Below are positions 36,395 to 39,599 of a stretch of DNA of 64,000 nucleotides, piece after piece. Every line of letters starts with the position of its first letter. Positions within the stretch are counted from its first letter, which is position 1. A program made the position numbers and the translations under genes. Source of the stretch: Comamonas avium (GTDB taxonomy: Bacteria; Pseudomonadota; Gammaproteobacteria; Burkholderiales; Burkholderiaceae_C); assembly GCF_014836675.1 (NCBI RefSeq), contig NZ_JACSQK010000002.1:372001-436000 (forward strand), given 5' to 3'. The notes beneath the pieces are model-generated. The model was not told where the DNA came from, did no database searches, and was given only the letters and a program-made list of their open reading frames with translations.

Positions 36395-36479
36395 AGCTGT
36401 CGCGCAGACTTGAGTCTGCCGTCTTTCCCTTCATCAAGACTTGCATTCGGCGCGGCACAAAGCCGAAAAGGACAAAGGC

Positions 36480-38243
36480 ATGACATTTGCCATCCATGGA
36501 TTGCCGGTTTCACGCGGCATAGCGATTGGCCGTGCGGTGGTGGTTGCAGCCAGTCGCGTAGAGGTTCGCCACTATTTCATCGAAGCCTCGCAGGTGGCCA
36601 CCGAGCTGGCGCGCGCACGCAAGGCACGCGATGCCGTGATCGATGAGCTGCAGCGCCTGGTCAGCGACTTGCCCGAGGATGTGCCGGGGGAATTGGCCGC
36701 CTTGCTGGAGGTGCACCTCATGCTGCTGCAAGACGAGATACTGACTTCGGGCGTGCGCCACTGGATTGCCGAGCGGTTGTACAACGCCGAGTGGGCGCTG
36801 GTAACGCAGCTGGAGCAAATCTCGCGTCAGTTCGATGAGATGGAAGACCCTTACCTGCGCGAGCGCAAAGCCGATCTGGAGCAGGTGGTGGACCGCATCT
36901 TGCGGCATATGCGTGGCATTGCAGCCAGCCCGGTGTCGCAACCACCAGCGGTGGCACAAGACGGCATGCAGCCGGTGCTGGAAGGCATGGCCGATGCGCC
37001 CCTGGTGCTGGTGGCGCAAGACCTGTCGCCTGCGGACATGCTGCAATTTAAGCGCAGCGTGTTTACCGGGTTTGTCACGGCCGTCGGGGGCAAGACAAGC
37101 CACACGGCCATTGTGGCGCGCAGTATGGATATTCCGGCTGTTGTCGGGGCACGCGCTGCCAGCCAGCTGATTCGCCAGGATGACTGGATCATCATCGACG
37201 GCAACGCTGGCATTGTGCTGGTTGATCCTTCACCGATCGTGCTGGAGGAATATCGCTTTCGCCAGCGACAAGACGTGCTGGAGCGCCAGCGTCTGGCCAG
37301 GCTGCGGCATACGCCTTCGGTCACTTTGGACGGGCAGAAGATTGAGCTGCTGGCCAACATTGAACAACCGGACGATGCTGCCGCTGCCGTGCATGCAGGC
37401 GCCGTGGGTGTAGGCCTGTTTCGCAGCGAATTTTTGTTCATGGGCAGGGAGGGAAAACTGCCCGGTGAAGAAGAACAGTTTGCCGCCTACAAGGCAGCGG
37501 TAGATGGCATGCAAGGCTTGCCCGTGACCATTCGCACCGTAGATGTCGGGGCAGACAAGCCACTGGACAAGAAAAGCTCTAAAGATGCATCGCTCAACCC
37601 TGCGCTGGGTTTAAGGGCCATCCGCTGGAGCTTGGCAGAACCGGCCATGTTTCGCACCCAGTTGCGTGCCATTTTGCGGGCGGCTGCTTTTGGCCGAGTG
37701 CACTTGCTGTTTCCCATGGTGTCGCACTTGCACGAGGTGCACAGCATCGTGGCCCAGGTCAAACTGGCGCAGGCCGAGCTAGATGCTCGTGGCGCAGCTT
37801 ACGGCATGGTGCAGTTGGGCGCGATGATTGAGATTCCTGCTGCCGCCATCATGGTGCGCAGTCTGCTCAAGCACTTTGATTTTGTCTCGATCGGCACCAA
37901 TGATTTGATCCAGTACACGCTGGCGATTGATCGTGCTGATGAAGCTGTGGCGCATTTGTATGACCCGCTGCACCCTGCTGTACTGGGTTTGGTGGCGCAG
38001 GTGATTGAAGCGGCCAACGACATGGGCAAGCAAGTGTGCGTGTGCGGAGAGATGGCCGGTGACGCGGGCATGACGCGCCTTTTACTGGGGCTGGGGCTGC
38101 GCAGCTTTTCCATGCACCCGGCGCAGATATTGAGCGTTAAGCAAGAAGTGCTGCGTGCCGATACGCGCAAACTGCAGCCTTGGGCCCAGCAGGTGCTGTG
38201 CGCCGATGCACCGGCGGCCATGCTCGAAGATGTGGGTAAATAA
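36480..38243 (+). CDS. ptsI: PTS enzyme I (phosphoenolpyruvate-protein phosphotransferase)
   Basis: 587-residue EI. The phospho-His is in GGKTSHTAIVARS, the PEP-binding barrel has LFRSEFLFMGRE, VDVGADKP and the conserved CGEMAGDAGMTRLLLGLGL with the catalytic Cys. The ATG at 36480 has AAAGG upstream; an earlier in-frame ATG at 36441 is unlikely. Third gene of the PTS cluster, 85 bases after ptsH. A probable Fur-controlled RNA lies just downstream. Confidence 0.96.
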   Translation: MTFAIHGLPVSRGIAIGRAVVVAASRVEVRHYFIEASQVATELARARKARDAVIDELQRLVSDLPEDVPGELAALLEVHLMLLQDEILTSGVRHWIAERLYNAEWALVTQLEQISRQFDEMEDPYLRERKADLEQVVDRILRHMRGIAASPVSQPPAVAQDGMQPVLEGMADAPLVLVAQDLSPADMLQFKRSVFTGFVTAVGGKTSHTAIVARSMDIPAVVGARAASQLIRQDDWIIIDGNAGIVLVDPSPIVLEEYRFRQRQDVLERQRLARLRHTPSVTLDGQKIELLANIEQPDDAAAAVHAGAVGVGLFRSEFLFMGREGKLPGEEEQFAAYKAAVDGMQGLPVTIRTVDVGADKPLDKKSSKDASLNPALGLRAIRWSLAEPAMFRTQLRAILRAAAFGRVHLLFPMVSHLHEVHSIVAQVKLAQAELDARGAAYGMVQLGAMIEIPAAAIMVRSLLKHFDFVSIGTNDLIQYTLAIDRADEAVAHLYDPLHPAVLGLVAQVIEAANDMGKQVCVCGEMAGDAGMTRLLLGLGLRSFSMHPAQILSVKQEVLRADTRKLQPWAQQVLCADAPAAMLEDVGK

Positions 38244-38282
38244 CCGTTGGTCGGGCGATGACCTTGTTTGCGAAGAAACTAT

Positions 38283-38312
38283 TTGCGATTAATTCTCATT
38301 CAGTGTTATAGT
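38283..38312 (+). promoter_or_regulatory. Fur-box promoter after ptsI
   Basis: -35 TTGCGA (38283-38288), 18-base spacer, -10 TATAGT (38307-38312). The 15-base TGCGATT-A-ATTCTCA (38284-38298) matches the TGAGAAT-N-ATTCTCA Fur pattern at 12 of 14 positions and overlaps the -35, the classical arrangement for iron-dependent repression. Confidence 0.6.
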
Positions 38313-38317
38313 TCACT

Positions 38318-38426
38318 CACTGAGTCCGCTAGACATTCTCTGGTGGGGAAGCTCCAAGGACTGCAGTGGTTTTAAGTTTCATCGTGGGGCGACAAGCAGG
38401 CCTGTAAAGCCTGTAAGTCGTTTTTT
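38318..38426 (+). ncRNA. Candidate Fur-repressed small RNA (iron-responsive, RyhB/NrrF-like role)
   Basis: About 109 nt with no open frame. The predicted 5' end folds as CACTGAGTCC (38318-38327) with GGACTGCAGTG (38358-38368), one bulge, enclosing GGGG-AAG-CTCC. A mostly unpaired stretch follows, then a terminator: CGAC and GCAGGC pair with GCCTGT and GTCG (38390-38420), followed by TTTTTT. Transcription would start six bases after the -10. Such RNAs repress iron-protein mRNAs when iron is low; targets are unknown here. Confidence 0.6.
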
Positions 38427-38487
38427 GCCAGCCAGCGGATTGCCCGGTTAGCCACGCATTTTTTCTTGCGATGCAACGTCAGGTACA

Positions 38488-38578
38488 CAAAATGAGAGCT
38501 ATTAGCGCATAAGACCAGGCGCTTTCAAGTATGAATGACTTGTAAAGCAAGGCTTGATCAGCGGTAGTAGCTACAAAA
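38488..38578. repeat. Palindromic intergenic element, degenerate copy
   Basis: Outer arms AGAGCTATTAGCGCATAAGA and TTGATCAGCGGTAGTAGCTA pair imperfectly; the inner repeat GCTTTCAAGT/ACTTGTAAAGC is well kept. It overlaps by a few bases a separate terminator at 38575-38604, in the gap between ptsI and lipA. Confidence 0.6.
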
Positions 38579-38604
38579 AAAGCAACCTTTGGGTTGCTTT
38601 TTTT
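38575..38604. terminator. Bidirectional terminator between the ptsI region and lipA
   Basis: AAAAAAAGCAACC-TTT-GGGTTGCTTTTTTT: 13-bp stem with T runs on both strands. It would end lipA transcription on the minus strand and anything reading through from the PTS/sRNA region on the plus strand. Confidence 0.85.
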
Positions 38605-38618
38605 GTGGGCAGCGTGCT

Positions 38619-39599
38619 TTAAACGCCGGCTGCGTGGGCTTGCTCGTCGGCGTGGTAGCTGGAGCGCACCATGGCGCCTACGGCTGCATGCGTGAAGCCC
38701 ATTTTGTAGGCTTCTTCTTCAAACATCTTGAACGTGTCGGGGTGTACGTAGCGACGCACTGGCAGATGGCTGTTGGTGGGCGAGAGATACTGGCCAATTG
38801 TCAGCATCTCGATGTCGTGCGCACGCATGTCGCGCATGATTTGCAAGATTTCTTCGTCGGTCTCGCCCAAGCCCACCATGATGCCGCTCTTGGTGGGAAC
38901 GTTGGGGTGCAGTGCCTTGAACTTTTTCAGTAAATTGAGCGAGAACAGGTAGTCCGAGCCGGGGCGCGCTTCCTTGTACAGGCGGGGCGCTGTTTCCAGG
39001 TTGTGGTTCATCACATCGGGCGGGGCTGCCTTCAAAATCTCGAGGGCGCGGTCATCGCGGCCGCGGAAGTCAGGCACCAAAATTTCAATTTGCGTCAGTG
39101 GCGACAGCGCGCGAATTTGCTGAATGCATTCCACAAAGTGGCCAGAGCCGCCGTCCCGCAGATCATCGCGGTCCACGCTGGTGATCACTACATATTTCAG
39201 GCGCAGGCGGGCAATGGTCTCAGCCAGCTTGCGCGGCTCGTCCACATCCAGCGGGTCGGGGCGGCCATGCCCCACGTCGCAAAACGGGCAGCGACGCGTG
39301 CACTTGTCACCCATGATCATGAACGTGGCCGTACCTTTGCCAAAGCACTCGCCAATGTTGGGGCATGACGCTTCTTCGCAAACGGTGTGCAGCTTTTGCT
39401 CGCGCAGGATGTCTTTGATTTCGTAAAAGCGCGTGGTGGGGCTACCCGCTTTGACGCGGATCCAGTCCGGCTTTTTCAGCGTTGGCGCGTGCTCAACCTT
39501 CACGGGAATGCGTGAAAGTTTGGCGGCCGCCTTTTGTTTGGCCAAGGGGTTGTAGTTTTCGGCGGACTGCGCTTCGCGCACGACTTCGTTGCTGCTCAT
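38619..39599 (-). CDS. lipA: Lipoyl synthase
   Basis: 326-residue radical SAM enzyme that inserts two sulfurs into octanoyl groups on E2 and GcvH proteins. Both cluster sites are visible: auxiliary [12 protein letters not shown] (Cx4Cx5C) and radical [11 protein letters not shown] (Cx3Cx2C). The closing RSSY motif ([10 protein letters not shown]) supplies the Ser ligand of the auxiliary cluster. It lies 10 bases after lipB, in one operon with it and a YbeD-like gene. Confidence 0.97.

Follow-up and report, generated by a model that had tools for sequence, protein, structure and literature searches.

A stretch of DNA between ptsI and lipA of Comamonas avium is likely to hold a stand-alone gene for a Fur-repressed, trans-acting small RNA (sRNA), which would spare iron by pairing with mRNAs and would be one of a set of modules. 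The analyzed window comprises 64,000 nucleotides (contig NZ_JACSQK010000002.1, positions 372,001 to 436,000), and all coordinates below count from its first letter. A sequence-only reading had proposed a Fur-repressed small RNA at this place, and comparative evidence, in the form of Fur boxes, covariation and a conserved place, speaks for the proposal. The sRNA family is widespread and apparently undescribed. For the large bacterial family of Comamonas, Delftia, Acidovorax, Variovorax and others, it would supply a candidate for an iron-sparing sRNA.

Promoter and anatomy of the predicted RNA

The predicted gene follows ptsI (PEP-utilising enzyme I, 36441..38243, forward strand, Pfam PF02896, PF05524 and PF00391) and faces the convergent lipA (lipoyl synthase, 38619..39599, reverse strand, Pfam PF04055 and PF16881). 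Its putative sigma-70 promoter (38283..38312, forward strand) consists of TTGCGA at 38283-38288, an 18-base spacer and TATAGT at 38307-38312. All of these parts were found where the sequence-only reading had placed them, as were the Fur box TGCGATTAATTCTCA (38284..38298, forward strand, 12 of 14 positions), which overlaps the -35 element and is kept in same-genus copies, and the 5' stem, which begins at 38318, 6 bases after the -10 element. An extended -10 motif (TGT, 38304-38306) can be added to the promoter, which is kept in the alignment. A promoter scan returned 1 site against 0.4 expected from shuffles, and the folding z-score was -2.05, with 4 of 200 shuffles equally good; either number is weak alone. 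Because these single-sequence statistics are weak, the whole case depends on comparison.

The predicted sRNA (38318..38464, forward strand) is about 147 nt long if it starts 6 bases after the -10 element and ends at a conserved second T-run. It opens with a 5' hairpin (38318..38368, forward strand), predicted by folding, the arms of which covary among 34 copies. The top of this hairpin carries CUCUGGUGGGG (38338..38348, forward strand), a putative first seed; its CTGGTGGG motif was present in 34 of the 68 scored copies that are not linked to hemP (unlinked copies, see below), and in all but one (L019) of the 30 loci L001-L030. The hairpin is followed by the unpaired GUUUCAUCGUGGGG (38376..38389, forward strand), the putative main seed, which is kept in unlinked and hemP-linked copies. 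The linker 17-mer served as the query for the copy collection, so that invariance of the linker there is by construction; unlinked copies found by a covariance model show TCTTCATCGTGGGG and altered stems. Hairpin B (GCGAC...GUCG, 38390..38420, forward strand) has arms that covary in 120 unique arm pairs, with both sides altered in L360 and L383.

The sequence-only reading had let the RNA end with this second hairpin and the six T that follow it. Both are present, but the T-run (38421..38426, forward strand) is not preserved as such, being replaced by GTCGGTTT in L010, L013 and L015 and by GTCGATTC in L033, L077 and L079, and the conserved unit continues to a second T-run. The conserved, predicted RNA thus extends to 38464, about 38 bases beyond the end proposed earlier. 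The additional part contains hairpin C (38427..38457, forward strand), which would also be the terminator stem and in which two AGCCA motifs (38430-38434 and 38450-38454) face each other in a manner resembling the HmuP-responsive element (HPRE), and the second T-run (38459..38464, forward strand), the predicted 3' end. The latter was T-rich in 130 of 130 unique modules among the matches listed, for which the search expression had required both AGCCA motifs and the T-run. Fifteen further 17-mer matches among those listed lay outside the search expression: 5 were chance-like, 3 were cut by the end of the locus, and 7 were variants, including L085, L096 and L102 with CGCCA instead of the second AGCCA.

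Conservation and covariation show the predicted order of 5' hairpin, linker, hairpin B and hairpin C. Swapping hairpin arms between copies weakened the pairing, and the native combination was matched by none of 2000 permutations for each hairpin (5' hairpin, 34 copies; hairpin B, 120 unique arm pairs; hairpin C, 99). For hairpins B and C the outcome was the same after dereplication (56 copies). In alignment A1, 94.3% of the cells were standard pairs, the covariation score was reached by 0 of 500 shuffles, and sliding the partner lowered pairing to 43% or less; four pairs had changed on both sides, a count reached by 71 of 500 shuffles. The source copies of A1 and of the covariance model R1 were found by the exact 17-mer and then by an expression requiring both AGCCA motifs, and the invariance of these letters is partly by construction. 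Of the 56 dereplicated copies, eleven were excluded from A1 by hand; most of these had long hairpins or were second copies in a tandem. Same-genus genomes supply at least 11 of the 45 rows of A1, and copies from related species are not independent of one another.

A search of 4227 Rfam families at E values up to 10 gave no match over 38283-38464, in agreement with the earlier statement that no known iron sRNA is identifiable here by sequence. Lax thresholds yielded only sub-threshold matches outside the feature, several of them on the lipA terminator near 38573-38606. A strong bidirectional terminator hairpin (38570-38608) lies between the sRNA and lipA and attracts most of the sub-threshold matches. 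The loci of eight relatives gave one tRNA and four sub-threshold matches, two of which overlap the module end in L034, while one touches its edge in L050.

RyhB, PrrF, NrrF and HrrF are Fur-repressed iron-sparing sRNAs. Like them, the window sRNA has a stand-alone gene with a Fur box of its own and a presumed iron-sparing action, but it differs in the lack of an Rfam match and in its putative seeds, the G-rich UCAUCGUGGGG and CUGGUGGGG.

Distribution of the module and rival explanations

A DNA search with 38265-38440 matched 54 of 100 genomes, including the window's own, at E values of at most 0.1, with many short and partial alignments among the weaker matches. Thirty loci were fetched and aligned. 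They share the Fur box, the -10 region, the linker, both AGCCA motifs and the second T-run and differ in the hairpin arms. The 1.5-kb upstream flank contained ptsI in 29 of the 30 loci, with its end more than 1 kb distant in some (e.g. L020-L022), and the downstream flank contained lipA in 24, one locus (L003) stopping before lipA could appear. Conservation after ptsI, which the sequence-only reading had suggested checking, was therefore found, in that the stretch with its Fur box, -10 element and hairpins recurs in same-genus genomes.

R1 (45 rows) found the module in 58 of 200 genomes of the family, representing 39 of 126 genera, at E values up to 0.01, and it gave 115 matches in 47 of 53 genomes of the genus Comamonas. 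Among these 115 matches, 35 lie directly behind hemP and 80 are unlinked. The unlinked copies number 0 to 4 per same-genus genome and have different 5' parts. The hemP gene (PF10636) was found in 46 of the 53 genomes, and unlinked copies occurred in 44 of these 46 as against one of the 7 genomes without hemP (G033, 75% complete), a comparison in which kinship is uncontrolled. The hemP-less genomes at 99% completeness (G011, G023, G026 and G035) had no unlinked copy.

The exact 17-mer occurred, among the matches listed, in Variovorax, Acidovorax, Paracidovorax, Delftia, Hydrogenophaga, Polaromonas, Rhodoferax, Ramlibacter and Comamonas. Other listed matches, such as those in Planctomycetota and Novosphingobium, have no module around them and appear to be fortuitous. 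The Comamonadaceae sRNA also occurs in a record under the name Pantoea sp. 18069 (L127 / G039:C12), a name that looks wrong. In plasmid records, the window stretch found no match and a module query found one, in Variovorax. Tandem modules, each with its own T-run, stand behind hemP in L078, L091, L150 and L153, which include Corticibacter and Lampropedia.

Fur-like boxes matching at least 11 of 14 positions were found upstream of all 80 unlinked same-genus copies. For 68 of them, the best 7-1-7 match in the 170 upstream bases scored 11 in 4 copies, 12 in 34, 13 in 28 and 14 in 2, and shuffles of these 68 (20 of each) reached at least 11 in 1.4% and at least 12 in 0.2% of the cases. The other 12 copies scored 11 (8 copies), 12 (3) and 13 (1). 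At the family level, none of 49 hemP-linked copies reached 11 of 14 (range 7 to 10), as against 13 of 16 others. Since three of these 16 are same-genus copies already counted, the fraction outside the genus is 10 of 13; the unlinked copies below 11 were L232 (7), L254 and L284 (10 each). These counts stem from 76 family-level R1 matches, of which 70 loci were read and 65 had a recognized core (5 had none); the scan omitted G259 and G312. In the 600 bases scanned at hemP of the window's genome, the best Fur site reached 11 of 14 slightly ahead of the hemP frame, a score that is weak at that length.

These results bear on explanations of the feature other than an sRNA gene. It might be the conserved 3' end or terminator of ptsI and nothing more, in line with its place behind ptsI on the same strand and its hairpins with T-runs; however, promoter and Fur box are kept, and there are copies elsewhere in the genome, one of them behind hemP, so that we regard this explanation as very improbable. 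Scarcely more credible is a mobile or repeated element whose hairpins would be incidental. The kept place between ptsI and lipA across species, the modest number of unlinked copies and the Fur-like boxes upstream of all 80 argue against it, even though genomes can hold several copies and tandem copies occur behind hemP. A repeated element of Bordetella has copies in Comamonadaceae according to the accessible text of a publication (PMC3110155).

The transcript might also be a short mRNA for a small protein under Fur control. Such proteins exist, HemP being one, and two short frames overlap the feature: a 35-codon frame with a TTG start (38268-38375) and, on the other strand, a 38-codon frame. 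Yet the 35-codon frame begins upstream of the promoter, none of the window's open reading frames of at least 80 amino acids overlaps the feature, and length changes and hairpin covariation extend across the unit, which leaves this explanation with hardly any probability. Our preferred explanation is the stand-alone sRNA gene.

Relation to hemP and BrrF

The genome of the window contains a second copy of the module (G000:C2:39983-40073), located directly after hemP and followed by an HbpS-like gene (PF03928). All 10 hemP-linked loci tested in the family have such a gene downstream (at a distance of 1.9 kb in L050), as do 10 of 20 distinct Burkholderiaceae loci linked to hemP, for which L218 and L300, the same place, were counted once and L296 was excluded.

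This arrangement recalls BrrF (NcS63, BTH_s39) of Burkholderia. According to the available part of its description (PMC7377471), BrrF is processed from the 3' end of hemP and controlled by Fur through hemP. Lack of iron induces it more than 50-fold, and its action lowers acnA, fumA, sdhA, sdhC, sodB and katB; brrF is stated there to be always downstream of a hemP homolog, without a Fur box directly upstream. These findings are restated in the accessible text of a review on Burkholderia sRNAs (PMC10987360). BrrF and the window family share the link to Fur, the predicted targets overlap (acnA and sdhC), and the second copy in the window's genome lies directly after hemP with the HbpS-like gene downstream. 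By eye, the order of elements is also shared: GUGGGG, a hairpin, GCC/GGC, two AGCCA motifs around a hairpin, and a U-run. In contrast, the window copy sits in the gap from ptsI to lipA, is preceded by a Fur promoter of its own and bears an additional 5' hairpin, and its core is UCGUGGGGCGAC rather than UUGUGGGGACCACC.

A BrrF core pattern, TTGTGGGGACCACC, for which the window carries TCGTGGGGCGAC, occurred in 28 of 60 Burkholderiaceae genomes, and a reversed control pattern in none. Eighteen of 20 loci read with this core lie within 100 bases of the hemP stop by pattern, and L309 also does so by eye. The match in L296 looks like a chance match inside a gene. The order of elements in BrrF-type copies, as judged by eye, is GUGGGG, hairpin, GGC, AGCCA, hairpin, AGCCAnGC and U-run. 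The BrrF-type copies (L291-L310 except L296) also carry AGCCA motifs, and many of them have a GACCCC able to pair with their own GUGGGG.

A covariance model of the hemP-linked Burkholderiaceae copies (R2) matched L208, L303, L298 and L218 with E values of 2e-23 to 2e-19; its training set includes L298 and L218 (the same place as L300), whereas L208 and L303 are outside it. The R2 match to the window (E 1.7) was not significant, nor was its best match to hemP-linked Comamonas copies (E 0.56), which was at the right place. Conversely, R1 does not list the Burkholderia-type copies L208 and L218. As the covariance models do not cross-match, the module is BrrF-like by place and design and is not BrrF by sequence. 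A position at the 3' end of hemP, as described for BrrF, was found for the sister copy and not for the window copy.

The sequence-only reading had called the sRNA an independent or divergent betaproteobacterial member. Comparison supports a divergent type, but a BrrF-like relative can be named, and because the same 3' module stands behind hemP, in the place and with the element order of BrrF, the window sRNA is probably not wholly independent of known iron sRNAs. In the likeliest history, a hemP-linked, BrrF-like 3'UTR RNA would have been duplicated and would have gained Fur promoters of its own. The window copy is distinguished by a Fur promoter of its own and by an additional 5' hairpin, whose loop is a second G-rich one. 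The family would illustrate how an RNA residing in the 3' end of an mRNA may give rise to several free genes with Fur promoters of their own.

Six Comamonas genomes (G007, G013, G017, G019, G031 and G048; loci L037-L042, L046, L047 and L356-L388) have two hemP genes each. Neither hemP has an R1-detectable module behind it, and the genomes carry four unlinked copies with Fur boxes and unlike 5' parts. Here the modules have apparently been released from hemP completely.

Predicted targets and the AGCCA pair

When iron is sufficient, Fur on the box over the -35 element would block the promoter. When iron is scarce, the RNA of about 147 nt would be made, exposing one G-rich stretch at the top of the 5' hairpin and the other in the unpaired linker ahead of hairpin B and terminator hairpin C. 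Both stretches are predicted to pair with mRNAs for iron-using enzymes where translation begins, the best candidates being acnA and sdhC, perhaps joined by fumA and sodB, and pairing would lower translation of these enzymes and thereby save iron. We hold iron sparing by start-site pairing to be the likeliest role, with moderate confidence.

Start regions of the window's own genome were scored for pairing, with 490 starts taken from Comamonadaceae loci and from the window as the background. The acnA start paired with the linker at -20.0 (equally strong in 0.41% of the background), the sdhC start with the loop at -17.5 (0.61%), the fumA start with the linker at -16.0 (5.7%), and the start of the Fe-type sodB at -13.4 (15.7%). 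The background fractions were 58.8% for the Mn-type sod, 12.5% for acnD, and 9.6% (linker) and 6.3% (loop) for leuC. The latter was intended as a negative control, but it encodes what we take to be an Fe-S enzyme and is therefore not a clean control. AcnA, SdhC, AcnD, LeuC and an Fe-S type fumarase of this genome scored above NCBIfam cut-offs; its two superoxide dismutases fit the Fe and Mn models best, respectively, each below the cut-off.

Among relatives, the median background fraction was 12.5% for the 7 acnA orthologues scored (two reach 5%), 10.8% for 20 sdhC orthologues with the loop (four reach 5%), 4.8% for fumA and 15.1% for sodB. Out of 300 seed shuffles, 0 did as well for acnA, 2 for sdhC with the loop, 3 for fumA with the linker, 5 for sodB with the linker, 12 for the SodA-like gene with the loop and 17 for leuC with the linker. 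The seed contains CAU, which favours any AUG. Loci with doubtful starts (L502, L445 and L469) were kept in the seed-shuffle test and dropped in the background test, the second fumarase of G007 (L485) was a dropped or doubtful row in both, and superoxide dismutase matches without a fetched locus (3 of 33) were unscored. Overall, support for the predicted targets is modest and, across relatives, uneven, and fumA and sodB appear weaker than acnA and sdhC.

In the window's genome the acnA start is ccccagATGAAAC; L468 has cacgATGAAA there, and L467 has caacgATGAAA. At the fumA start, cttcacgATGAC is present in 10 of 21 cases. The starts of both genes resemble the complement of UUUCAUCGUGGGG.

The AGCCA pair of hairpin C leads to a further reading, compatible with a role in pairing. 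The accessible text of PMC9131926 gives the HPRE of Chromobacterium violaceum chuR as CCCGCAAGCCAGCCGACAGCCAGCCAGCG with a repeated AGCCAGCC; ChuP is reported there to bind heme and to exert its effect after transcription. HemP/HmuP acts at the transcriptional level in some species and post-transcriptionally in others, according to the available part of PMC11442138. The HPRE of Ensifer shmR and Chromobacterium chuR and vbuA has, in the same accessible text (PMC9131926), repeated AGCCA(GCC) around a short spacer. The sRNA resembles this arrangement in its AGCCA pair, whose motifs form opposite sides of an internal loop within hairpin C. The window has the pair with one GCCAGCCA unit and a second unit shorter than the repeated AGCCAGCC. 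In the portion of PMC9131926 available, HPREs are described in 5'UTRs of receptor genes, whereas the window's pair forms the 3' half of an sRNA; this copy is followed by the convergent lipA and does not lie in the 5'UTR of a TonB-dependent receptor gene. The openly accessible texts on Fur sRNAs, Comamonadaceae, BrrF/hemP and HPRE/HmuP, as far as they were available, contained neither this sRNA family nor an HPRE in an sRNA.

The facing AGCCA motifs may act as a HemP/HmuP-responsive element, so that the sRNA would either depend on HemP, a small protein that binds heme, as its partner or would soak up HemP and thereby tune heme-receptor expression, an idea that we put forward as possible but doubtful. 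It fits the chuR element, and across loci of the order (L171-L220) the 220 bases after hemP contained an AGCCA pair in 33 of 46 cases (shuffles: mean 1.9, maximum 5), while 25 of the 46 had a GCCAGCC pair (shuffles: 0.03); four of the 50 loci could not be placed, and the 46 include a few from families discussed above. The sRNAs preserve the two AGCCA motifs and vary in the hairpin that separates them, and unlinked copies accompany hemP in the genus. On the other hand, the sRNA's pair is shorter than the full AGCCAGCC pair, module selection required both motifs, CGCCA takes the place of the second one in three variants, and the co-occurrence with hemP is confounded by kinship and incomplete genomes, the sole exception being the genome at 75% completeness.

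Tentatively, the iron-starvation sRNAs of Comamonadaceae, and perhaps BrrF too, could combine a G-rich pairing seed with a HemP-binding hairpin, in which case a heme-binding protein produced under the same Fur control would determine, according to the heme level, if the sRNAs act or are kept from acting. If true, this would be a class of sRNAs with a heme-responsive protein partner, joining iron sparing to heme uptake, and it offers a testable link between sRNAs and HemP/HmuP, a small protein of disputed mode of action. A loose pattern of AGCCAGCC...AGCCAG had 27 matches in the window's own genome and is too common to find receptor targets. The locus L212 (G185) has, behind hemP, TTGGGGACCCG...CGGGTCC followed by a GCCAGCC pair, and may be an intermediate.
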